A stretch of 64,000 bases of DNA, from NCBI GenBank assembly GCA_029194535.1, contig JARFXR010000001.1, forward strand, positions 496,001-560,000. The letters are read 5' to 3'. Under the pieces are notes generated by a model, which saw only the letters and a list, made by a program, of their open reading frames with translations, was not told the origin of the DNA and did no database searches. This stretch comes from Nitrospira sp. GTDB lineage: Bacteria > Nitrospirota > Nitrospiria > Nitrospirales > Nitrospiraceae. Both the position numbers and the translations under genes were made by a program. Shown one piece after another: positions 5,029-30,883 of the stretch (positions are counted from its first letter, which is position 1; each line of letters starts with the position of its first letter).

Positions 5029-6660
5029 ATGAGCCGCATCTGGGATTACTATCCGAGGCAGCATTATCTGAGTCTCGTGCCGTGGGTCTGGGTCCAGTTG
5101 GAAAGCGGCGAGCCGCCCGGTCCCTTTCCCTTCATCGGCGGTGCGGGCTCCGACGTCATCGCGAGCCTTCATGAAGCGCACAGCCTGCTCGCCAGTTCCA
5201 TCGACACCGCTATCAGCGATGTCTTCTCCAAGCGGGCGCCCCTGGATGATCCGGACCGCCGCCGACGATTGGAAGACGCCTATTCGGAACTCGTCGCCGC
5301 ACGGCCATATCTGCAACGACATATCGCCTGCGGGCGCAAGCCCGACGGCAGCTTTCACTGGGAGTTTCCGACTGATCCGACGAAGTCGTCTACGGTGACG
5401 AACGGAGGACTGCGGATTTTTCATTCGGTGAGGCGGCAGGCGATCCCGATCGCCTTCGAGCAGCGCCCGCTCGGTCCCGTGATCGGGAAAGTCCTCGGCA
5501 TGCTGAACGGCACGCGACAGGTGGAAGAAATCAAGACGGTCGTCTCCACGTCGTCGCGGGAGTCGCAGGTCGTGCTCATTCGACTGATGGAGGCCTTCCA
5601 TCAATATGAGTGTCTCGTCAGCTCGCCCCAGGTCGCGGTCCGGCAGCAGTGGTTCGAAGCCGTGCAGGATCAGGACACAGTCCATCTCGGCCATGCCGCC
5701 TTGCTGTATCGGCAACAGGAGCAGGCGCTGCTCTTCGACCCCTGGCTGCTGCCCTGGTACGCCGAATCGTCCGTGCCGTCTCCCTGGGGTCCGCTGTTGC
5801 CCAAGCCGGCCGCCGTGTTCCTGACCCACGATCATGACGACCATGTGGACCCGCGCACACTCCTGCATCTTCCCAAGGAGACGCCCATCATCGTGCCGAG
5901 CCGGCGCAACCGCAAGCAATTGTTCTACGACTATCTGTCGCTGCTCCGGGAGTTGGGATTCGCTCACGTGATTGAGCTGGCTCACGGCGAGGCCTGGTCT
6001 TTCGAAGGAGGAGCCGTCGTCTCGGTTCCGTTCTACGGGGAAGATCCCTGTGACCTGGAGATGCCGCGAAACTGTTATCTGATCAGCGACCGAGGCTACA
6101 ATGTTCTAGTGCATGCCGACAGCGGTCCGACCAACGACGGACGTTCCGCCCTGAAGGAGAATATTCTCGCCCGGCTGGTCGACAAGTACGGGCCGATCCC
6201 CCTCGTGTTCGCCTCGCAGCAGCAATTGCTGGAACTCCGGAGTCATGCCGCGCATGCGGCCCTGTCCCATCCGGGCAAGTGGCTCGACATCGGCGAGAAC
6301 GGCTACCTCACCAACGCATACCTGGCCGAGATCTGCGCGGCGGCCCGCGCAAAAGCGCTTGTCTCGTACGCCACCGGAGGTGCCGATTGGTACCCCGATC
6401 ACTTGTCCTTTATGTTCAGTCGGAGAAATCCCGCGAGAACGGCGCTGCTCACGGCGCATTGGGAGCCTCCGGAAAATCTGAAAGCCTTTCTCGCTCCTCT
6501 AGGTTGCGGGTATCATTATGCCCAGGCATTCGACCGGTATCGGCTGACCCAGGAGGGGACGATCGACGTCCGGTCGGCGGGTGGAAGGCTTGAGCCGATG
6601 ACCTTATACACGGCGGCGTTCGGAGAACCGGTCTTCATGCAGACGGGGCGGCGGTCGTAG
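5029..6660 (+). CDS. PqqD-like plus metallo-beta-lactamase-fold protein
   Basis: 543 residues. Residues about 145-200 ('GPVIGKVLGMLNGTRQVEEIKTVV...') look like a PqqD-like winged helix, the fold used as a peptide-recognition element in RiPP systems. Residues about 225-510 form an MBL fold with an intact HxHxDH metal motif (THDHDDHVDP, near residue 266) and a later 'VLVHADSGPTNDG' that would supply the bridging Asp. MBL proteins with this motif and substrate-binding C-terminal half include UlaG-like lactonases and the N-acetylneuraminate-monooxygenase-type family. Neighbours (VOC protein, nucleotide-sugar epimerase) do not fix a substrate. No radical-SAM or precursor peptide gene is visible next to it. 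Confidence 0.75.
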   Translation: MSRIWDYYPRQHYLSLVPWVWVQLESGEPPGPFPFIGGAGSDVIASLHEAHSLLASSIDTAISDVFSKRAPLDDPDRRRRLEDAYSELVAARPYLQRHIACGRKPDGSFHWEFPTDPTKSSTVTNGGLRIFHSVRRQAIPIAFEQRPLGPVIGKVLGMLNGTRQVEEIKTVVSTSSRESQVVLIRLMEAFHQYECLVSSPQVAVRQQWFEAVQDQDTVHLGHAALLYRQQEQALLFDPWLLPWYAESSVPSPWGPLLPKPAAVFLTHDHDDHVDPRTLLHLPKETPIIVPSRRNRKQLFYDYLSLLRELGFAHVIELAHGEAWSFEGGAVVSVPFYGEDPCDLEMPRNCYLISDRGYNVLVHADSGPTNDGRSALKENILARLVDKYGPIPLVFASQQQLLELRSHAAHAALSHPGKWLDIGENGYLTNAYLAEICAAARAKALVSYATGGADWYPDHLSFMFSRRNPARTALLTAHWEPPENLKAFLAPLGCGYHYAQAFDRYRLTQEGTIDVRSAGGRLEPMTLYTAAFGEPVFMQTGRRS

Positions 6661-7952: not shown

Positions 7953-8534
7953 TTAGAGACAGCCGACCGGAACGAATCCCGTGCCGAACATCCGGCTCAA
8001 TGCCAGCCAGCGGGTGTTGTCATAGAAGGAATAACTGGGGCCCCGCTGATTCTGTGCGGAGAGATCTCCTCCATAGGACGGGTCTGATCCGAAGAACATC
8101 CCGCCTCGCGTCTTCTGGTTCAGGTGAAGCCATTCGCTGTACATGGAGCAGACCTCTGCATGCACCGTTCCGGATGAGGCCACGCTGGCGTGCCAGTCCT
8201 TGGCCCAATCAGGCGTCGCCGGCGATCCCGACGGACCGACGGCCCGATCCACCGGAGGCACGTCGTATTGCGGGGCTGCGGCGACCGGAGCGCGGTAGGT
8301 CGGCATCGACTCCAGAGATGGCACGACCGACAGAGGCTTCAATTCCATCGGCGTGCAGCCGACTCGGTTCTTGCTGACCTTATTGGTATAGAGGACGGTG
8401 CCGTCCGGGAGCGGACAACTCCACATGGTGCCGAGATCGACGTCCGTCTGCTCCAAGGCATTCGACATCGCCGGCGTCACCGCCCACATCATCGCCATGG
8501 TCGCCACGACCCGGTACACATCGCGTGGCCGCAT
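7953..8534 (-). CDS. Exported protein with DUF4124-like segment
   Basis: 193 residues from ATG 8534, preceded by AGGGGAGGT. It has a signal peptide (MRPRDVYRVVATMAMMWAV...) with cleavage near 'MSNALE'. Residues about 35-65 ('MWSCPLPDGTVLYTNKVSKNRVGC') resemble DUF4124, a short beta-rich domain in exported proteins typically written as 'Y.C.dadG...Ysn..p...C'. The remainder is Pro-rich and then a Trp/Tyr-rich stretch with 'FYDNTRWLALSRMFG'. No catalytic motif is seen and the role is unknown. It stands alone on its strand with its own terminator-like hairpin downstream. Confidence 0.7.
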   Translation of the reverse strand: MRPRDVYRVVATMAMMWAVTPAMSNALEQTDVDLGTMWSCPLPDGTVLYTNKVSKNRVGCTPMELKPLSVVPSLESMPTYRAPVAAAPQYDVPPVDRAVGPSGSPATPDWAKDWHASVASSGTVHAEVCSMYSEWLHLNQKTRGGMFFGSDPSYGGDLSAQNQRGPSYSFYDNTRWLALSRMFGTGFVPVGCL

Positions 8535-9526: not shown

Positions 9527-11533
9527 ATGACGGACTATGGTGTACTCGGCAATTTGCTCGTCATTTTCTCGGTGTCGATCGCCGTCGTCTTCGTCTTTCA
9601 CCAGTTCAGGCTCCCCTCGATCGCCGGATTTCTCGTCGCAGGGGCGCTGATCGGACCGCACGGGTTGAACCTCATTTCCGATGTGGGAACGGTCCAGATC
9701 TTGGCCGAGATCGGCGTCGTGCTGCTCCTCTTCACGATCGGGATTGAGTTTTCACTGGTGCAACTCGCGTCCCTTCGACGGCTGCTTCTGGTTGCGGCGC
9801 CCATTCAGGTCGGCGGTGTCCTGTTCGTGGCCTGTCTGGCCGTCCTGCCGACCGGGCTTGGGTGGCAGGAGGGAATGTTCTGGGGATTCATGCTTTCACT
9901 CAGCAGCACGGCCATCGTCTTGAAGACGCTGGCGAACCGCGGCGACAGCGATTCGATCCACGGCCGCGCCACGATCGGCATCCTGATCTTTCAGGATCTT
10001 GCCGTCGTTCCGATGATGCTGCTGACGCCCATTCTCGCCCGTCCAGCCGAGGGAGCCGGCCTCTCGACTCTCGCGACGTTGGGCAAGTCTGCGCTGGTGG
10101 TCGGGCTCGTTGTGGCCGCGGCCTGGTATGCCGTTCCGAAGCTGCTGGAACATATCGTCCGAAGCCGGAGTCGGGAGCTGTTTCTCCTGACGATCATCGT
10201 GCTCTGTCTGGGCATCGCTTGGCTAACGTCTCTGGGCGGCCTTTCCCTGGCCCTCGGCGCCTTCATTGCCGGCCTGGTCATTTCGGAGTCCGAGTACAGT
10301 CACCAGGCGATGGCGGAGGTGCTTCCATTCCGCGACAGTTTCAACAGTCTGTTCTTCGTCTCGATCGGCATTCTCATGAACTGGCGCGTGCTGATCGAGC
10401 ATCCCTTTCTGGTCACCGGACTGCTGGGGGCCATCCTCCTGGTGAAATTTGTCGCCGGAGCGGTTGCCGCCCTTGCGGTGAAGGTTCCGCTCCGTTCGGC
10501 GCTGATGGTCGGTGTGGCGCTGGCGCAAGTGGGCGAGTTCAGCTTTCTTCTGGCCCAACAGGGGCAGGAGAGCGGTCTGTTGCGGGGAGATCCCTATCAG
10601 GTGTTCTTGGCGGTCTCGGTTCTCTCCATGATCATCACGCCGTTCTTGATGGAGTGGTCGCCGGCGATGGCGCGGCGCGTCGAAGCGATGCAACGCCTGC
10701 GGCATTGGTTTCCCACCCGCACCACCGCGCATGCGTTGCAAGCGGAAGGGAAGCACATCCGAATCAAGGATCATGTCATTATCGTCGGATACGGGCTCAA
10801 CGGGCGGAATCTTGCGCGTGTCTTGAGCGAAACGGAAATTCCGTACGTCGCTTTGGATCTCGACGGCGATACGGTCAGACGGGAGGCGCAGCACGGCGTG
10901 CCGGTGTACTACGGAGACGCCACGAACGCGAACGTGCTGCGTCACGTGAAGATCGAGGATGCCAAAGTGCTGGTCGTCGCCATCTCGGATCCGTTCGTCA
11001 CCCGTCGGACCGTTCAAGTGGCCAAGGGACTCAATTCGAAACTGCACGTGGTCGTACGCACGCGATACCTGCGCGAGCTCGAGGAGCTGCATCAGCTGGG
11101 AGCCGACGACGTCGTGCCTGAAGAATTCGAAACGTCCATCGAGATCTTCGCGCTTGTCTTACGCACCTACGACATGCCGCAGGAGTTCGTGACGCGGAAG
11201 GCCGAACAGATCCGACGGGAGGGCTATGCGCTGTTGCGCCGCAGCGAACTACCCGAGCTGGCCCATCATCTGAGAGGCGGGACCCTCACCGATGCAGAGG
11301 TTGAGACGTGCCGGATCGAGGAGGACGCGCCCTCTGTGGGAAAAACATTGGACGATCTGGCGATCCGTCCCCGCACGGGAGCCTCCGTCATCGCGTGGAC
11401 CCGTGCCGGCGTCACCGAGTCCAATCCGCCTCTGAAGACCAAGCTCAAGGGAGGCGATATCGTGGTGCTGCTGGGGGCGCGTGAACAGATCAGGCGGGCG
11501 ATGAGTCTTCTGGTTGAGCCGTCGCGCGAGTAA
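9527..11533 (+). CDS. Monovalent cation:proton antiporter-2 (Kef/CPA2 type) with RCK domains
   Basis: 668 residues from ATG 9527. Residues 1-390 form about 12 membrane segments with CPA2 signatures ('FRLPSIAGFLVAGALIGPHGL', 'EIGVVLLLFTIGIEFSL', 'FMLSLSSTAIVLKTL', 'GILIFQDLAVVPMML'). A Rossmann RCK-N domain starts near residue 415 ('HVIIVGYGLNGRNLARVL', GxGxxG), followed by an RCK-C-like domain at the end ('GGDIVVLLGAREQIRRAMSLL'). This architecture fits a nucleotide-gated K+ or Na+ efflux/antiport system in the inner membrane. No KefF/KefG flavoprotein ancillary gene is next to it. Confidence 0.93.
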   Translation: MTDYGVLGNLLVIFSVSIAVVFVFHQFRLPSIAGFLVAGALIGPHGLNLISDVGTVQILAEIGVVLLLFTIGIEFSLVQLASLRRLLLVAAPIQVGGVLFVACLAVLPTGLGWQEGMFWGFMLSLSSTAIVLKTLANRGDSDSIHGRATIGILIFQDLAVVPMMLLTPILARPAEGAGLSTLATLGKSALVVGLVVAAAWYAVPKLLEHIVRSRSRELFLLTIIVLCLGIAWLTSLGGLSLALGAFIAGLVISESEYSHQAMAEVLPFRDSFNSLFFVSIGILMNWRVLIEHPFLVTGLLGAILLVKFVAGAVAALAVKVPLRSALMVGVALAQVGEFSFLLAQQGQESGLLRGDPYQVFLAVSVLSMIITPFLMEWSPAMARRVEAMQRLRHWFPTRTTAHALQAEGKHIRIKDHVIIVGYGLNGRNLARVLSETEIPYVALDLDGDTVRREAQHGVPVYYGDATNANVLRHVKIEDAKVLVVAISDPFVTRRTVQVAKGLNSKLHVVVRTRYLRELEELHQLGADDVVPEEFETSIEIFALVLRTYDMPQEFVTRKAEQIRREGYALLRRSELPELAHHLRGGTLTDAEVETCRIEEDAPSVGKTLDDLAIRPRTGASVIAWTRAGVTESNPPLKTKLKGGDIVVLLGAREQIRRAMSLLVEPSRE

Positions 11534-11537
11534 CGGC

Positions 11538-12200
11538 TTAGCGTGGCAGGCCGGCCATCGCTTGATAGGCGTCATCCAACGTGCCCACCTCGAGGATGGT
11601 CACCCGTGGAGACCGGCTGCTGAAGTCCCATTCCGCCGTGTTGGATTGTCCTCGTGGCACGAGCACCGTTTTGAACTGTTCTCGTGCCGCCGCTTCAACT
11701 TTCTGGGGGACGCTGCCGACGGCAAGGATGTCGCCGTTCGGCGCGATTTGTCCGGTCAGCGCCACACCGGGCCGTATGGTCTCGCCTCGCCAGGCCGCCA
11801 TGATACCAACCGCGATCGCACCGCTCGCGCTCATGCCGTCGGTCATGGCGTTGTGGGATCGATTCTTGATGGTGACCACCCAGTCACGCCCGTCCGTCCC
11901 GAGATGTCGTAGGGCGGTCAGCACGGCCTGCCTGACGCCCGCTTTCCAGTCGTCACCCACTAGCGAACCTCCCCCCAAATTGATCTCGCTGAACTGAATC
12001 ACCGGTCCGTCTGCTCCGGGATCGGAAGAGATCTGAATGGCGATGTAATGGACGACTCCCGTCCGCCCGTCGCTCAGAACGGCCAAGGCCGGTACCGAAG
12101 CCAGACGGGGATTGTCGAATGCATGGGCGCTGGCGAACGGGATGAGAACGAGCAGCAATGCCAGGATGAATGGCCTCACGCGTCGGGAGCCGCTCGACAT
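11538..12200 (-). CDS. Exported Lon-type (S16) peptidase domain without ATPase
   Basis: 220 residues from ATG 12200; GGAGGAG lies 6 bp upstream, which decides the start over a TTG at 12206. Signal peptide residues 1-28 (LALLLVLIPFASAHA). Residues about 85-215 match the Lon proteolytic domain: 'DGMSASGAIAVGIMAAW' aligns with the Lon DGPSAG box (Ser124) and 'GSVPQKVEAA' with Lon GGxxxK (Lys167), giving an intact Ser-Lys dyad, and 'FKTVLVP' follows as in Lon. No AAA+ domain is present and the protein should be periplasmic, so it cannot be a classical ATP-dependent Lon. Its SD overlaps the end of the Rieske-like remnant upstream, suggesting co-transcription. Confidence 0.8.
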   Translation of the reverse strand: MSSGSRRVRPFILALLLVLIPFASAHAFDNPRLASVPALAVLSDGRTGVVHYIAIQISSDPGADGPVIQFSEINLGGGSLVGDDWKAGVRQAVLTALRHLGTDGRDWVVTIKNRSHNAMTDGMSASGAIAVGIMAAWRGETIRPGVALTGQIAPNGDILAVGSVPQKVEAAAREQFKTVLVPRGQSNTAEWDFSSRSPRVTILEVGTLDDAYQAMAGLPR

Positions 12201-12202
12201 GC

Positions 12203-12670
12203 TCAACTCCTCCAGCGAAGCGTTACGCGGTCCTTCAGCGGATGGTCGAACGGCCGTCCAGTTTGCACCGAGTCGAGATGGGCCGCTTTGAGTCTATAGT
12301 ACCACTTGGCCGGAGTGTTCCCGTCGTCGATCGTGCAGTCGAGCACGGTGGAGATGTGGATCATTCGGAAAGGGGAAGCCGGCAGCGGCAGGGGCGGGAC
12401 TTCGAGAATGGGTTGCTCCGGTCGCGACGGATCGGAAATGAACACCCATACATATCCGTCCCGTTCCCTGCAGGGGTAGGTTGCGACCCCGATCTTGTCC
12501 GGGTGGACGGGAGAATCTTGGACCTGGGAGGGGATCGTCCGGCCTCGACCCTTCGGATCGATTTGCCATCCGCGGTAGGCGCACTCCACGCAATCGCCTC
12601 GCAGGAGTCCAGCGGTCGAGGCTCTGTTTGAGCTGAATAGGACTATAACGAGCGAGGTTTCGAAGGTCAA
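12203..12670 (-). pseudogene. Truncated Rieske-type ring-hydroxylating oxygenase remnant
   Basis: An open frame of up to 155 residues containing the second half of a Rieske domain: 'LLRGDCVECAYRGWQID', 'GRGRTIPSQ', 'YPCRERDGYVWVFI'. In functional homologues the second ligand motif is CxxH (CPYHGW); here it is CAYRGW, with Arg33 in the ligand position. The first CxH ligand motif is absent because the frame starts after it. The catalytic iron domain is reduced to about 50 residues ending 'KDRVTLRWRS'. I therefore read it as a decayed fragment, although the frame is uninterrupted and abuts the Lon-type gene, so expression as a small protein is not excluded. The 250 bp upstream (12671-12920) hold only the DsrE promoter. 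Confidence 0.6.
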
Positions 12671-12920: not shown

Positions 12921-13451
12921 ATGACTGCCACACAACTGGATCCCGCGGTCGCCTTATCGGATCTGCAAGTCTCCAAACCCGACCGGGTGACGATCGTGCT
13001 GCTTAGCGGCGACCTTGATCGTGCGATGGCTGCCTTCATCATCGCGACCGGAGCCGCGGCGATGGGCATGCAGGTCACGATGTTCTTCACCTTCTGGGGG
13101 TTGAACGCGATCCGCCGGAAGGGGGCGACAAGTTCCGCAAGAGATTGGCTCCGGCGCATGTTCGGGTTATTGAACCAGGGAGGCGCCGAGACCCTTCCGC
13201 TGTCCCGCTTTCATTTCGGCGGGCTTGGCACCAGAATGATGCACAAGGTGATGAAACAACACCGAATGCCGGGGGTGCCTGAACTGATCGCCACGGCGAT
13301 GGATCTTGGCGTCCGATTCATCGCCTGCACGACCACGATGGGACTCATGGGGATCACGAAGGAAACCCTGATCGACGGCGTCGACCAGTTCGCGGGTGTA
13401 ACCACGTATCTAGCCGAGGCGAAGCAGGGCAGTGTCAATCTCTTCATTTAG
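12921..13451 (+). CDS. DsrE/DsrF/DrsH-like (DsrE2) family protein
   Basis: 176 residues. It matches the DsrE2-type fold: 'RVTIVLLSGDLDRAMAAFIIATGAAAMGMQVTMFFTFWGLNAIRR' and 'IACTTTMGLMGITKETLIDGVDQFAGVTTYL', with Cys136 in the position of the family's sulfur-binding Cys. DsrE2 proteins move persulfide sulfur, commonly with TusA and rhodanese partners, and are membrane-associated or cytoplasmic. A TusA gene follows 62 bp downstream, and the pair shares the promoter at 12837-12866. GAGAAGGGGGA precedes the ATG. No dsrAB or heterodisulfide-reductase-like genes are in the window. Confidence 0.88.
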   Translation: MTATQLDPAVALSDLQVSKPDRVTIVLLSGDLDRAMAAFIIATGAAAMGMQVTMFFTFWGLNAIRRKGATSSARDWLRRMFGLLNQGGAETLPLSRFHFGGLGTRMMHKVMKQHRMPGVPELIATAMDLGVRFIACTTTMGLMGITKETLIDGVDQFAGVTTYLAEAKQGSVNLFI

Positions 13452-13513: not shown

Positions 13514-13762
13514 ATGATGATGATTGCTGATGTGACGCTCGACACACTGGGGTACTTTTGTCCCATGCCGATCATCATGACCTCGAAGAAGATCAAGGAA
13601 TTGGCTTTGGGGCAAATCCTTGAGGTCCTGTCCGACGACGAGGGTATCAAGAAGGATATGCCGGCTTGGTGCGACACGACCGGTCACCAGATGCTGGGCC
13701 TCGAAGAGGAGCAGGCTCAGTCCGGGCGCGTCTACAAAGCCTTTGTGAAGAAGACTAAGTAG
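13514..13762 (+). CDS. TusA-family sulfur carrier protein
   Basis: 82 residues. It has the diagnostic 'DTLGYFCPMPIIMTSKKIKEL' N-terminal segment, with Cys16 in the CPxP box that carries the persulfide, followed by the 'LEVLSDDEGIKKDMPAWCDTTGHQMLG' core. TusA accepts sulfur from cysteine desulfurase or DsrE-type partners for tRNA thiolation, molybdenum cofactor or sulfur oxidation. Adjacency to a DsrE2 gene supports a persulfide relay. The alternative starts ATG 13514/13517/13520 cannot be separated. An intrinsic terminator follows. Confidence 0.92.
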   Translation: MMMIADVTLDTLGYFCPMPIIMTSKKIKELALGQILEVLSDDEGIKKDMPAWCDTTGHQMLGLEEEQAQSGRVYKAFVKKTK

Positions 13763-25740: not shown

Positions 25741-27108
25741 ATGGCTCAGACATTAGAATTGCTCTTGGATGCGCTCGAAGACGTGGACGACGCCACGCGC
25801 GAGGAAGCGGCGAAGGCCTTGGCGGAGTTGGCCGATCCCAAGGGCTTGGAGGCGCTGATCGGCGCCTGTAGTGACGAATACTGGTCCGTTCGCGCCCACG
25901 CCGCTTGCGGGATCGCGAAGCTCGGCGGTCAAAAGGCCGTCGAGGCGCTGGTGACTCTGTTCGACGATCCCATCATGGAAGTGCGCAACCAAGCCGTGGA
26001 ATCGGCCGCCCGCATGGGAGCCGCCGTGCTGGATCGGATGCTTACGGGGTTGAAGGACGAGCGGTGGCGTGTCCGAGAGCATGCAGCCAAGACGTGCGGT
26101 GAAATTCGGGATCCCAGAGCCGTCGACGCCTTGATGGTCGCCTGCCGTGACCGCGACGGAGCCGTGAAGAGTGCCGGAGCGGAGGCTCTGGGAAAGATCG
26201 GCGATCCGAAAGCCGTCCCCGCCCTGATCAAGCTGTTCCGCGACACGTCCAAGATCGTCCGAGAGACAGCGGGAACCGCGCTCGTCTATATCGGGCCGCC
26301 GTCCGTGGATCCGCTCATCGCATGTTTTGCCGATAAGGATTTTGTCGTCCGCTGTCACGCGGCGCGCGCCTTGGGCGGTATGACGACCGACTACCAAATC
26401 GGCAGGACCTGGGTGAGGGAGCCCAAGGTCGTCGAGGCCCTCATCGCTGCCCTCAAGGATGCGGACCGCGCCGTGCGCGAGGATGCGACTATCGCGCTCG
26501 GCATGATCGGCGATCCTCGCGCGATCGATGCGCTGATCGAGGCGATGAAGGATGGAGCGGTCAAACGGCATGCGATCGCGTCGCTCGGCATGATCGGCGA
26601 CCCACGAGCCCTCCCTCCTGTGCTCGATGCGCTGAAAGGAAAGGGGATCCGACAGGACGGCACGCCGACTCCCGGGTGCATCGTCAGCGAGGACGCGTTC
26701 ATTAAAGAAGCGGCCGCCACGGCATTGGGACAGTTTCGCGATCCCCGGGTCATCCCCGATTTGATCATGTTGCTGAAGGACGGTGTGTTGCGCGAGAAGG
26801 CCAGCGCGGCACTGGCCGCGATCGGCGACACCGCCATCGAACCCTTGATCGCCTTCCTATACGACCCGAAGGCGTCCGAGGTCGCGTCGGAGGGCGAACG
26901 AGTCCTGTCTTATGCGTCGGTCCGTCTCAGCGCCAAAGATGCGTTGCGGCAACTGGTGATGGAGACGCTGGAGAAGCTCGGGTGGACCTTGCCTCAGGAA
27001 GATTCGGCGGTCGATTCCAGCAACGTGGACAATGCGCGGGTCGATCTCCCGCTTGGGGTCGGCGGCAGGTTCGGACCGTCGGGAGATTTTGCCAAAGGCA
27101 GCAGCTGA
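25741..27108 (+). CDS. HEAT-repeat protein 1 of cluster (about 12 repeats)
   Basis: 455 residues, almost entirely PBS-lyase-type HEAT repeats of about 31 residues ('D..vR..Aa.aLg.igDpravdaLi.al'). Clear units include 'KDERWRVREHAAKTCGEIRDPRAVDALMVAC' and 'KDADRAVREDATIALGMIGDPRAIDALIEAM'. The array ends in a capping segment 'METLEKLGWTLPQED' and then a 40-residue low-complexity tail. No catalytic domain. HEAT arrays of this kind scaffold protein complexes; relatives CpcE/CpcF are phycobilin lyases, but nothing here suggests pigment chemistry. AGAGGAA lies before the ATG. First of five such genes on one strand. Confidence 0.9.
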   Translation: MAQTLELLLDALEDVDDATREEAAKALAELADPKGLEALIGACSDEYWSVRAHAACGIAKLGGQKAVEALVTLFDDPIMEVRNQAVESAARMGAAVLDRMLTGLKDERWRVREHAAKTCGEIRDPRAVDALMVACRDRDGAVKSAGAEALGKIGDPKAVPALIKLFRDTSKIVRETAGTALVYIGPPSVDPLIACFADKDFVVRCHAARALGGMTTDYQIGRTWVREPKVVEALIAALKDADRAVREDATIALGMIGDPRAIDALIEAMKDGAVKRHAIASLGMIGDPRALPPVLDALKGKGIRQDGTPTPGCIVSEDAFIKEAAATALGQFRDPRVIPDLIMLLKDGVLREKASAALAAIGDTAIEPLIAFLYDPKASEVASEGERVLSYASVRLSAKDALRQLVMETLEKLGWTLPQEDSAVDSSNVDNARVDLPLGVGGRFGPSGDFAKGSS

Positions 27109-27139
27109 ACGCTGCTCCCCGCCACTCCTTCGGCGCAGA

Positions 27140-27650
27140 CATAACGACGCTCACGCCGCGAGATTGCACGGACGTCGCAGGCTTTCGTCCCCTCTGCAAT
27201 CACGCCGGGTGGGCGTCTTCGGACCTCCGACTATACGAGCCTGATGCTGCTGCCTCACGGCGATGCCGTCTGTGTCGGGCGTCTTCTTTCCGTCCTTCAT
27301 GTTCGTGATGGTAGCTTGTCCCCTCGTAGGGACCGACCGTTCCTCTCGCATCGACGTGGATCACCGTAACGCCGGGGATCGTTCCCTCGGCGTTGTCGGC
27401 GGTCTTGTCGTTCCCGGTCAACGGACTGGGGCCTCGCAGTCCCACAAAGACCTAGAAGACGTATTGGTTGTCCGGAGCGACATCCGTCAGATCCGGAGCC
27501 TGGTCGTGGTTCCCCTCGGAGACCAGATCGTCCAAACCGACACTTTACTCAGCGTGTCGATGATCTCAATATTGTTGCCGGCACGACCCGCGCTCCGGAG
27601 GTAGCCCCCGATGGCCGCCGTGCTTCAGAGATTGTTCGAACCGTCCGGTC
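27140..27650 (-). pseudogene. Decayed YVTN-type beta-propeller protein fragment
   Basis: Reading the minus strand across frames gives 'GNNIEIIDTLSK' (an NxIxxIDT strand as in YVTN propellers), then after a frameshift 'APDLTDVAPDNQYVF', an in-frame TAG at 27452-27454, then 'VFVGLRGPSPLTGNDKTADN' and 'GTIPGVTVIHVDARG', and after a further frameshift near 27310 'MKDGKKTPDTDGIAVR'. These join into one propeller-like sequence ('D..PDG.yvFVsLRGPnPLTGN...tPGv.VI.V...dphGIaVR'). At least two frameshifts and one stop make it a pseudogene. Boundaries are approximate. It fills the gap between the first and second HEAT genes. Confidence 0.5.
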
Positions 27651-27690
27651 CGGCAGTGGGTCAGGTTGCCATCCAGACGCACTGAAGTCT

Positions 27691-27782
27691 GTCATTCTCG
27701 CGGAAGCGGGAATCCAGTCAAGACCTTCTCTTCAGCAGTTAGTCGTGATCGAGGACTGGATGCCCGCCTTCGCGAGCATGAC
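27691..27782 (+). repeat. 92-bp palindromic dispersed element, copy 1
   Basis: The ends are imperfect inverted repeats of about 29 bp (GTCATTCTCGCGGAAGCGGG... and its complement-like ...CGCGAGCATGAC). A second copy of the same 92-bp length lies inverted at 33110-33201. Similarity between the copies extends beyond the ends, to about 27657-27808. The form is that of a MITE or REP-like element; no transposase is present. Confidence 0.85.
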
Positions 27783-27875
27783 GCAAGAGGAAACCGACCC
27801 ACTACCTCCTGCGCGGTTCCGTTGACCCTGCGAAAATGCCTGTGTTAGGCTCACTGATTCGCAAGAGGAACAACA

Positions 27876-28958
27876 ATGGCCGATGCGGTTGCCGAGCAGA
27901 TCGCGGCGCTCAAAGACGGGGATTGGGCTATTCGCGAGGAAGCCGCCGCGATGCTGGGAACGCTGCGAGATCCGCGCGCCGTGGTGCCGTTGGTGTCGAT
28001 GTTGCGGGACTCGGATCGCGCGGTGCGCGAGGCGGCGATCGGGGCGTTGACCGCCATCGGGGCGCCTTCAGTGCCGGCTCTCGGGCTCTGTCTTTCGGAT
28101 CCCCATCTGGCGGTACAGGAAGCCGCGTCTGCCGTGCTGGCTTGCATCGCCGATGAGCGGGTCCTGGCCCCGCTGCTGGCCGCACTCGGTAACAAGGATT
28201 GGATCGTCCGGATGCACGCGGCCAAGGCCGTGGGCCGCATGAAGAATCCGGAGGCCATCGATCCGTTGATCCCGCTGCTGCAGGACAAGGTAAAGGCGGT
28301 TCGCGAAGAAACGACGGCGGCGCTGGTCGTCATCGGGGATGCGGCCATCCCTTCGCTGCTCGCGGCACTGGGAGACACCGATTGGTTGGTCCGCCTCCAT
28401 GCGGTGGAAGCGCTGGGGAAGATGAAGTCGCCGGCGGCGGTCGAGCCGTTGTTGTCGGCGCTGTTCAATGATCGCGATGCGGCGGTTCGGGAAGATATCG
28501 TACGGGCCCTGGGTCAGATCGGGGACGGCCGCGCGGTCGAATTCCTGATGATGGTCATGAAAGAATCGGGGCTGCGCCTGCTGGCCGTGGAAGCTCTGGG
28601 TCAGATCCGAGATCCGCGCGCGGTGCCGGTGTTGATCAAAGTGTTGGAAGGCGCCGATCAGCCAGCAGACTCACGCGTCATCGCCGGCTGCGGAGACAAC
28701 TGGAACGAGGAAATGGTGACGATGGGGGCTGCGGCGCGGGCGCTCGGCGCTCTGGGGAACGATGCCGCCATTCCCTCGCTGATCAAGGCCTTGCGCCATA
28801 CGATGACGAGAGCAGAGGCCGCCGGCTCATTGGCATGCTTCGGGGCCAAGGTCATCGCTCCGCTGCTGACGTTCCTGTCGCAGGAGACGGATGACAATCT
28901 CCGCTTTCACGTGAACGAAACCTTGACGAAGGTCGGCTGGAGGCCGGGTCGCGTGTAG
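27876..28958 (+). CDS. HEAT-repeat protein 2 of cluster
   Basis: 360 residues of about ten HEAT units, beginning directly at the N-terminus ('IAALKDGDWAIREEAAAMLGTLRDPRAVVPLVSML'). Repeats such as 'GNKDWIVRMHAAKAVGRMKNPEAIDPLIPLL' are close to those of its neighbours. One unit carries an insertion around 'SRVIAGCGDNWNEEMVTMGAAARALG', similar in place to the insertion in protein 1 ('DGTPTPGCIVSEDAFIKEAAATALG'). It ends with the same type of cap, 'NETLTKVGWRPGRV'. AAGAGGAA precedes the ATG. Scaffold role inferred. Confidence 0.9.
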   Translation: MADAVAEQIAALKDGDWAIREEAAAMLGTLRDPRAVVPLVSMLRDSDRAVREAAIGALTAIGAPSVPALGLCLSDPHLAVQEAASAVLACIADERVLAPLLAALGNKDWIVRMHAAKAVGRMKNPEAIDPLIPLLQDKVKAVREETTAALVVIGDAAIPSLLAALGDTDWLVRLHAVEALGKMKSPAAVEPLLSALFNDRDAAVREDIVRALGQIGDGRAVEFLMMVMKESGLRLLAVEALGQIRDPRAVPVLIKVLEGADQPADSRVIAGCGDNWNEEMVTMGAAARALGALGNDAAIPSLIKALRHTMTRAEAAGSLACFGAKVIAPLLTFLSQETDDNLRFHVNETLTKVGWRPGRV

Positions 28959-29028
28959 GACATGGTCAAGTCCGTGCAGGGATGCCCGGAGAAGCGACGC
29001 ACCGGGCCGCCGAGGGTCGTGGTTTGAT

Positions 29029-30126
29029 ATGTCGAAGGAAAGTATTGAAACGCTCGTCGCCGAACTGATCCACGAGGAAGATTGGCGGCGCATGCGGGCG
29101 ACGGCGGCCTGCTTGGCGGGAGGTCCGAAGGCGGTACAGGCCCTCGTCGAAGCCTTACATTCTGGACCTCCCGCGTTGAAACAGGAGGCAGCGGCGATGT
29201 TGGCCCGGATCAAGGACCCGCATGCCGGTGTGGCATTGGTCGGCTTGCTGGAGGACGGAGAGGAAGCCGTGCGAAAGTCGGGCGCCACGGCGCTGGAACA
29301 GATGGCCGGCGTGCTCGATACGGAGACCGCGACCGCGTTGGTTGCGCTACTTCCAAAAACCGAGGGAGGAGAAACCAAGCGCCTCGTCACCCATCTGGTT
29401 GGAGCGATTCCGACCGCCGTCGTGCCCCTATGCCAGATGATGAAACATTCCGATCCCGAAGCACAGGTGACCGCCGCGTTGATGCTGGATCACTTGCTGG
29501 ATCCTCGATCCGTCGATGCGTTCATCGATGCAATGGGCCAGCCTGCAGTCCGCGACATTGCGGCCGGCACGCTGAGAAAGCTTGGCGCCATCCGGGAGCG
29601 GATCGACGAGACGTTCAATGTATTGCGGAACGTCGAGGGCGCCAGTGAGCGGGAAGAGGCTCGGATGGCGACGGTGGTGGACCTGCTCGGGATCGGCCGC
29701 CCGGCGGTGGAGATCCTGATCGAATACCTCGAAGATGAGGATTGGCTGGTACGCGAAGCCGCGGCGGATTTGCTCGGAAAGATCGCGGACGTGCGGGCGG
29801 TCGAGCCTCTGATGCGGCGACTCCAGCACGACAAAGATACGGGAGTGAAGGAGCTGGCCATCAAGGCACTCGGGCTCATCGGTGACGCGCGTCCCACAAC
29901 CCTGTATCTGGAAGCCATTCCGATCAGGCCTCTGCGCGTCTATGCGATGGAGGCGCTCGCGAAAATCAAAGACGTCGAAGTCTTGCGGCCTCACAAGGAT
30001 CTCTTCGATCGACTGCGGACGGATCGTGACGGCCTGGTGGCGTACAATGCCGGGTTGATCTCCGACAAGCTGGAAGCGCTGACCGCCGCACCTGCCGAAG
30101 GCCAGGAAGGACAGAGCCATGACTGA
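29029..30126 (+). CDS. HEAT-repeat protein 3 of cluster, divergent
   Basis: 365 residues. The N-terminal two-thirds are more diverged HEAT units ('EEDWRRMRATAACLAGGPKAVQALVEAL', 'LEDGEEAVRKSGATALEQM'). After a linker ('NVEGASEREEARMATVVDLLGIGRPAVEIL') come canonical units ('EDEDWLVREAAADLLGKIADVRAVEPLMRRL'). The last 60 residues are non-canonical with a polar tail. It overlaps the next gene by 8 bp, so the two are translationally coupled. No enzyme motif. Confidence 0.88.
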   Translation: MSKESIETLVAELIHEEDWRRMRATAACLAGGPKAVQALVEALHSGPPALKQEAAAMLARIKDPHAGVALVGLLEDGEEAVRKSGATALEQMAGVLDTETATALVALLPKTEGGETKRLVTHLVGAIPTAVVPLCQMMKHSDPEAQVTAALMLDHLLDPRSVDAFIDAMGQPAVRDIAAGTLRKLGAIRERIDETFNVLRNVEGASEREEARMATVVDLLGIGRPAVEILIEYLEDEDWLVREAAADLLGKIADVRAVEPLMRRLQHDKDTGVKELAIKALGLIGDARPTTLYLEAIPIRPLRVYAMEALAKIKDVEVLRPHKDLFDRLRTDRDGLVAYNAGLISDKLEALTAAPAEGQEGQSHD

Positions 30127-30883
30127 AGGGAACCAGCCGGATCGGATCGAACAATTGATCAGCGCGCTGCGGGACGACAACGAAGCGCTGAGGGACCATG
30201 CGATCGCGAGCTTGAGCCAGGTGGGAGAGGAAGCGATCGGTCCGTTGATCGGACTCATGGCCGACGAGGACGTGTTGATTCGGGAGGCCGCCACGACCGC
30301 GGTGGTTCGGATCGGGCCAGCCGCCGTCGGGCGGCTGATCGATGCGGTTGAAGACGACGAATGGGCGATTCGAGAGCAGGCGGCCTCGGGACTGGGCAAG
30401 CTGAAAGATCCCCGCGGGGTCGAACCCTTGGTGAAGGCGCTCAAGGACAAAGACGGCGCCGTCCGGACGGCTGCGGTGTGGGCGCTTGAGCGCATCGGCG
30501 ATTCCCGCGCGGTTCCGGGCTTGGTGGACGCGCTCACGGACAGCACGTTGCGGGAAGATGTCGCGCGTGTCTTGAAGAAGATCGGGGATTCGAGGGCGGT
30601 CGACGCGCTCATCGAGGGGTTGCTGGGCAACAATTGGATGGTACGGCGTCATGCGGCCGAGGCACTGGGAAAAATCGGTGATCAGCGCGGAGTCGGCCCC
30701 CTGATCGAATCGTTAAAGGACGAGGACTGGTTGGTGCGGAGGAATGCGGCCGAATCGCTTGCGCGTCTGGGGGCGAAACAGGCGATCGACCCGTTGCTTC
30801 CTCTGCTCGAAGACGAAAATACGATGGTGCAAGAAACCGTGGAAGGGGTACTGGCAAGCCTGGGGTGGAAATCGGTCTCCTAG
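30119..30883 (+). CDS. HEAT-repeat protein 4 of cluster
   Basis: 254 residues, about eight near-consensus HEAT units, for example 'EDDEWAIREQAASGLGKLKDPRGVEPLVKAL' and 'LGNNWMVRRHAAEALGKIGDQRGVGPLIESL'. It ends 'EGVLASLGWKSVS', the shared cap. The start overlaps the end of protein 3 by 8 bp, with AAGGACAGAG as a likely SD inside that gene. The most regular repeat array in the cluster. Confidence 0.9.
   Translation: MTEGNQPDRIEQLISALRDDNEALRDHAIASLSQVGEEAIGPLIGLMADEDVLIREAATTAVVRIGPAAVGRLIDAVEDDEWAIREQAASGLGKLKDPRGVEPLVKALKDKDGAVRTAAVWALERIGDSRAVPGLVDALTDSTLREDVARVLKKIGDSRAVDALIEGLLGNNWMVRRHAAEALGKIGDQRGVGPLIESLKDEDWLVRRNAAESLARLGAKQAIDPLLPLLEDENTMVQETVEGVLASLGWKSVS

Follow-up and report, generated by a model that had tools for sequence, protein, structure and literature searches.

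Within the window, the whole stretch of 64,000 nucleotides of Nitrospira DNA that we analysed, an open reading frame of 220 aa lies on the minus strand (ATG at 12200, stop codon at 11538–11540) between the gene for a cation antiporter and the remnant of an oxygenase gene (Table 1); its strand and coordinates are as originally predicted. Its product matched Lon_C (PF05362) in Pfam at 43.5 bits, over the curated cut-off of 21.1, which bears out the predicted Lon S16 domain; nothing else was found there except ChlI below its cut-off. Pfam gave no AAA+ module in the 220 aa, which sets the protein outside LonA and agrees with the predicted lack of an ATPase, and no PDZ domain even at E 1. None of the seven NCBIfam models listed reached its cut-off on the protein: the best matches were two LonB models at ~50 bits (cut-offs 517 and 723), of which TIGR00764 was the top match (50.6 bits against 516.6), while the LonA model TIGR00763 scored 35.3 bits against 608, the RadA model a weak 23.2 against 403, and the SepM/YlbL model NF041438 13.2 against 200.

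Table 1. Features of the S16 locus, in window coordinates
Feature	Position	Strand	Basis
Na+/H+ exchanger with TrkA-N/TrkA-C (CPA2/Kef type), 668 aa, convergent	9527..11533	(+)	Pfam; family in 18/19 group-A loci, not L053
Stand-alone S16 (Lon P-domain) protein, predicted to be exported, group A	11538..12200	(-)	ORF, PF05362, AlphaFold model, VIA-align
Lys167 codon, predicted general base	11700..11702	(-)	Alignment to Lon catalytic Lys; conservation; model
Ser124 codon, predicted nucleophile	11829..11831	(-)	Alignment to MjLonB/AfLonB Ser; conservation; model
Predicted Sec signal peptide, residues 1–27 (...FASAHA / FDN)	12120..12200	(-)	Sequence; relatives; own rule; cleavage site inferred by eye
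Rieske/VanA-type oxygenase remnant; 2 bases between its stop codon (12203–12205) and the S16 start codon	12203..12670	(-)	tblastn
Shine-Dalgarno sequence GGAGGAG	12207..12213	(-)	Sequence
DsrE_2 family protein, divergent	12921..13451	(+)	Pfam; 18/19 group-A loci
TusA sulfurtransferase, adjoins DsrE gene	13514..13762	(+)	Pfam; 18/19 group-A loci

The predicted catalytic residues, Ser124 within DGMSAS and Lys167 within VPQKVEAA, line up with the catalytic residues of MjLonB and AfLonB. Both were invariant in all 39 aligned sequences of group A, to which the window protein belongs, and the related group B, and in 23 of 23 group-A sequences the Lys stands exactly 43 residues after the Ser. The same spacing separates the dyad residues of Escherichia coli Lon (679/722; PMC2605481) and BsLonBA (445/488; PMC9569914). 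The residue before Ser124 is Met123, which is neither the Pro that precedes the catalytic Ser in LonA nor the Asp found there in LonB and LonC (PMC9569914). Structure prediction and superposition, proposed as a check on the original prediction, returned a Lon P-domain fold: the AlphaFold model (mean pLDDT 83, pTM 0.79; poorly defined in the signal region and in a loop around residues 75–79) had the E. coli Lon P-domain as its top Foldseek match (E 4.4e-15), matched Lon across residues 32–220, and aligned to 1rr9_A, the same E. coli domain, with a VIA-align Z of 25.1 and an rmsd of 2.0 Å over 174 residues. Ser124 sits in the first turn of helix 122–138 and Lys167 inside helix 164–173, so that neither falls outside the modelled active site, and this placement agrees with the helical layout described for Lon (PMC9569914). 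Alignment, conservation and model together thus support an intact dyad in a predicted Lon fold, as first proposed.

The N terminus of the window protein has a basic stretch and a hydrophobic core, followed by an AHA/FDN site. We scored export with a rule of our own (basic n-region, hydrophobic core, A-x-A-like site, not polytopic), by which the signal peptide of the original prediction is present, as it is in 22 of 23 group-A proteins, the window protein included, and in 18 of 20 group-B proteins. Elsewhere in the window 8 of 51 genes passed, some exported-looking and some not, and so did many shuffled N-termini (1448/4600 for group A, 804/4000 for group B). Because shuffles often pass, the rule is weak on any one sequence, and the weight therefore rests on the presence of the signal across divergent orthologues. 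A hydrophobic N-terminal segment occurs in 18 group-A and 20 group-B relatives, whose start codons were picked partly by distance to the S16 domain, and an A-x-A-like site follows in 37 of these 38, the exception being L074. Cysteine is absent beyond residue 40 in 23/23 group-A and 16/20 group-B proteins and, for comparison, in 5 of the 16 window genes that encode 150–300 aa. In comparisons with two relatives, 81% and 71% identical to the window protein, dN was 0.31 and 0.61 in the signal segment, compared with 0.08 and 0.15 in the mature part; cleaved signals usually evolve faster than the mature part. These features support the reading that the window protein is exported.

The same two comparisons gave dN/dS of 0.076/0.519 and 0.152/0.985 for the mature part, a ratio of ~0.15, and the S16 gene is alive and under purifying selection. 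Full-length group-A orthologues with the same architecture were found at 18 further loci, and the exchanger, DsrE and TusA neighbours of Table 1 are kept in 18 of the 19 loci compared, window included, with L053 differing. These neighbours, comprising the antiporter, DsrE/TusA and Rieske genes, point to no substrate, and across the 19 loci no gene for an exported partner is conserved next to the group-A gene. The Rieske gene has fared less well than the protease. With a full-length relative as tblastn query, only residues 43–138 and 291–332 of the 332-aa Rieske protein are left in the window, so that the decayed oxygenase of the original prediction is indeed decayed, having lost its 5' end and an internal stretch; the full-length relative has PF00355 and PF19112, and the remnant itself had no Pfam match. 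The ribosome-binding sequence was also correctly placed at the end of this gene, where it occupies the last three sense codons one base ahead of the stop codon. Directly upstream of S16, a Rieske/VanA-type gene aligns over its whole length at 12 of the 23 loci from relatives (11 of 22 if L037 and L076 are one contig, as they appear to be), and a Rieske match at E 1e-4 is absent in the other 11 of the 23. With the window included, the gene is thus absent or broken in 12 of 24 loci, which argues that the protease does not depend on it; the protease outlives its former Rieske neighbour.

The protein had been treated as a singleton, which proved wrong: it is one branch of a family spread across its order. 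We took the order as Nitrospirales and the phylum as Nitrospirota, inferred from named orthologues, and searched with A4, a profile built from 21 members of groups A to E, scoring the first 12 or first 9 candidates per genome in the phylum searches. At E 1e-20, A4 matched 105 of 117 order genomes, and in 104 of the 117 the best match, at 1.9e-42 or lower, was a stand-alone S16 protein; the remaining matching genome, G293, had only a 505-aa frame at 2.8e-21. Among the matches listed, the best were frames below 460 aa, and the stand-alone copies numbered one to four per genome, with five in G036. In a wider draw of the phylum, at least 107 of 295 genomes matched at 1e-22 with the first 9 candidates per genome scored. 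All 17 matching genomes outside the order did so through Lon-sized frames of at least 666 aa, none better than 4.3e-25, and within the phylum the family is likely absent outside the order, judging by these matches. One short group-A motif, searched in genome contigs, occurred only in records labelled Nitrospira, Nitrospirae, Nitrospirota or Nitrospiraceae. The only NCBIfam models to match the 21 A4 members were Lon, SepM and RadA. That these proteins are SepM/YlbL without its PDZ domain is disfavoured by the scores, both the low score of the window protein and the lack of any SepM match at E 1e-20 in 148 phylum genomes, though the SepM model matched 11 of the 21 members weakly (best E 4.4e-8) and our tree has no SepM row. 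We also rejected a plasmid- or phage-borne gene: the matches of P0001 to 23 plasmid and 3 phage records were weak and in every case spanned less than 80% of the query, and the two plasmid matches inspected of the 23 fall within LonA-like frames that are full-length, at 797 and 805 aa. Viral fold matches of the model comprised four giant-virus Lon-type proteins and one 478-aa phage protein. Separately, a 232-aa uncharacterised protein of Catovirus CTV1 (BFVD A0A1V0S9M3) has the size of a stand-alone S16 protein and matched the fold at E 2.4e-6.

The groups differ in active site and setting. Group B, of which the source genome carries a copy as its second predicted exported S16 protein, has the motif DGPSAG, with a pentapeptide-repeat gene alongside in 20/20 loci and genes reading by eye as ScpA/ScpB in 19/20. 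The pentapeptide-repeat protein is a possible partner of the group-B protease; the L062 copy (L062:6150–7208, minus strand), which Pfam identifies as a pentapeptide-repeat protein, is probably exported, and the gene is divergent from the adjoining protease gene at every group-B locus compared. Group C (L127–L130, genus g18) has Thr at the catalytic Ser position and keeps the Lys in 4/4 proteins read, two of which are aligned in A4, and its gene faces a TPR-like protein and a two-partner secretion pair, assigned by eye, in the 3/3 loci with flank. Group D mostly reads GDSLSAM, with Asp before Ser as in LonB, and shared no neighbourhood in the loci compared. One of its six members in A4 (L145, ORF 5538–6218, plus strand) has lost both Ser and Lys and is likely, from its sequence, a pseudoenzyme. 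Group E (L137, L138, L146 and L093–L096) comprises S16 proteins of ~300 aa with an N-terminal extension; a DUF4124-like segment precedes S16 below the cut-off of 22 in L138 (21.0) and L146 (17), with none in L137, and an alanine-dehydrogenase-like gene, assigned by eye, follows in 6/7 loci. Two other regions of the window deserve mention: a short, probably exported protein (7953–8534, minus strand) without a Pfam match, whose WSCPLPDGTVLYTN...GC motif recalls the group-E N-terminal segment, and a run of adjacent genes that look HEAT-repeat-like by eye (25741–30883, plus strand).

A phylogeny against Lon, LonC and S16 singletons had been suggested with the original prediction. In an unrooted tree of 47 rows (9 phylum Lon, 3 PDB Lon and 35 exported), a branch with support of 100/99 parts the 12 Lon rows (LonA, LonB, LonBA) from all 35 exported ones. 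Group C nests inside group B, and group D falls beside the Lon rows on a branch of 90/76. The PDB rows are short pieces, two of which differ in letter make-up. Given the lack of a root, the position of group D near Lon, the short PDB rows and the missing LonC, SepM and RadA rows, a single origin of the putative exported S16 family is consistent with the tree and not shown by it. We lean slightly towards a scenario in which Nitrospirales evolved an exported, motor-less S16 subfamily from a Lon-type P-domain, with at least five groups, four of which have their own loci among those compared, one of which would have gained a DUF4124-like segment and one of which would have exchanged Ser for Thr while keeping Lys. 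If this is true, the Lon active site would have a Thr-Lys variant in group C.

We consider it probable, with fair confidence, that the window protein is an exported, ATP-independent serine peptidase that acts on peptides or unfolded proteins through a Ser124–Lys167 dyad, belonging to neither LonC nor SepM/YlbL. We infer the following course for it, from export route and signal cleavage to activity, substrates and oligomeric state. The Sec pathway would carry a Lon-fold serine peptidase to the periplasm, or beyond, where its signal would be removed and the dyad would cut without an ATPase. Since there is no unfolding motor, folded proteins could not be pulled apart, and the most likely targets would be peptides, unfolded or damaged exported proteins and flexible tails. 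The active form may be oligomeric, since crystals of isolated Lon P-domains can contain hexamers; in the published work the BsLonBA P-domain was a hexamer in the crystal and a dimer on a sizing column (PMC9569914). Two precedents favour an exported ATP-independent peptidase: the motor-less LonC is described as cleaving a peptide and unfolded proteins without ATP and as leaving folded ones uncut (PMC3391209), and Bacillus subtilis YlbL consists of a transmembrane segment, a PDZ and a Lon domain, its S234A form having failed to complement (PMC6051672). On the other side, Met123 matches neither LonA nor LonB/LonC. Purified YlbL lacking its membrane segment is also reported as inactive in vitro (PMC6051672), and the dyad is pulled apart in one crystal structure of the AfLonB P-domain on its own (PMC9569914), so that a bare P-domain may be inactive alone. 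For self-processing, which the original prediction had raised, nothing in the present evidence speaks in favour. The source genome also has five DegP/HtrA-type matches over cut-off and one S41 peptidase, together with two frames of Lon size, at 845 and 804 aa, and one RadA-sized frame of 476 aa. With DegP-type and S41 proteases present, the exported S16 protein would be an addition rather than a replacement, and we rejected the idea of a substitute for missing DegP/Prc.

The main rival is a dedicated processing peptidase resembling SepM/YlbL, which would cut a particular exported protein or signal peptide at one or a few sites instead of removing unfolded proteins; we regard it as a serious though unlikely alternative. 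The distinct loci are stable (18/19 in group A, 20/20 in B, 3/3 in C and 6/7 in E), and stable but differing loci fit several specialised paralogues better than one general enzyme, while a genome with five DegP/HtrA-type matches and an S41 peptidase has no obvious need of an extra general degrader. YlbL acting on YneA (PMC6051672) and SepM acting on a pheromone are precedents for such processing. The window protein, however, has no PDZ or other recognition domain, group A has no conserved exported partner gene alongside and group D has no shared neighbourhood. A related doubt concerns the hydrophobic N-terminus, which could be an uncleaved anchor tethering the peptidase to the membrane on the periplasmic side, as in YlbL. 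The hydrophobic core present in all 38 orthologues and paralogues would suit this, and YlbL itself is anchored, but the A-x-A type site after the core in 37 of them, as well as AHA/FDN in the window, and the high dN of the segment, as is usual for cleaved signals, make an anchor rather improbable.

It is more improbable again that the protein is exported but without catalytic activity, its Lon-fold domain serving as a scaffold or inhibitor that binds peptides or other proteins. The Lon-like domain of RadA is a model for this, as the fold serves there without proteolysis, and the Thr of group C and the group-D member lacking both residues suggest that some members of the wider family may have roles other than enzymatic ones; in groups A and B, though, the invariant Ser and Lys, and in group A their exact spacing, are as catalysis would predict. 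We give hardly any credence to the idea that the gene is the leftover of a complete Lon gene in decay, or that a cytoplasmic protein has been misread. The same-strand upstream neighbour is decayed, which lends this reading its one point in favour, but the full-length orthologues, the purifying selection and the well-supported branch from Lon rule out a Lon fragment. We thus retain the exported ATP-independent peptidase as the preferred reading.

S16 proteins without a motor are already a known kind: many MEROPS S16 groups are described as including proteins that have no ATPase parts or are not themselves peptidases (PMC9569914, 2022), and Lon_C-only proteins numbered 39 in a survey of 2008 (PMC2605481). 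Our searches of the open-licence literature turned up no account of an exported Lon family from Nitrospira. The predicted exported S16 family of the order is one whose window member is over the cut-off of no NCBIfam model and, by its sequence, lacks the defining features of LonA, LonB, LonC and SepM. Lon is the textbook ATP-powered cytoplasmic protease, and most sampled genomes of this order appear to keep one to five exported copies of its cutting domain alone. Nitrospira are nitrite oxidisers, some of them comammox, and the proposed proteins would give the cell envelope of these organisms, which are central to the nitrogen cycle, a further and as yet unnamed protease family. Its naturally occurring variants (Ser, Thr and dead) may also make it possible to test if and how a P-domain works on its own and what turns it on.

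Among known systems, the birnavirus VP4-type protease is a Lon-fold Ser-Lys peptidase without an ATPase, and its fold was matched weakly through the Blotched snakehead virus structural polyprotein (E 2.3e-3); it is part of a viral polyprotein and not exported, and we saw no sequence kinship with the window protein. The Lon-like domain of RadA has the same fold (5lkm, Z 20.6), but RadA is cytoplasmic and fused to an ATPase, whereas the window protein is not so fused and matches it weakly in sequence. SepM/YlbL proteins are likewise S16 proteins without an ATPase and with a membrane segment or export signal; they are membrane-anchored PDZ-S16 proteins, whereas the window protein has no PDZ and scores far below their model. 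With the P-domains of LonA, LonB and LonBA (MEROPS S16) it has in common the fold, the Ser-Lys dyad, the 43-residue spacing and a long N-terminal beta-hairpin, and it differs in lacking AAA+, in its predicted export, in its place across the 100/99 branch and in the Met before Ser; LonB in particular is a membrane-bound AAA+ protein with Asp at that position. LonC of Meiothermus taiwanensis, which resembles the window protein as a predicted ATP-independent S16 peptidase, is the best mechanistic model. It is described as cytoplasmic and as keeping a large degenerate AAA-like region (PMC3391209, PMC9569914), whereas the window protein, with its 220 aa and Met123, would be a P-domain and signal peptide alone.
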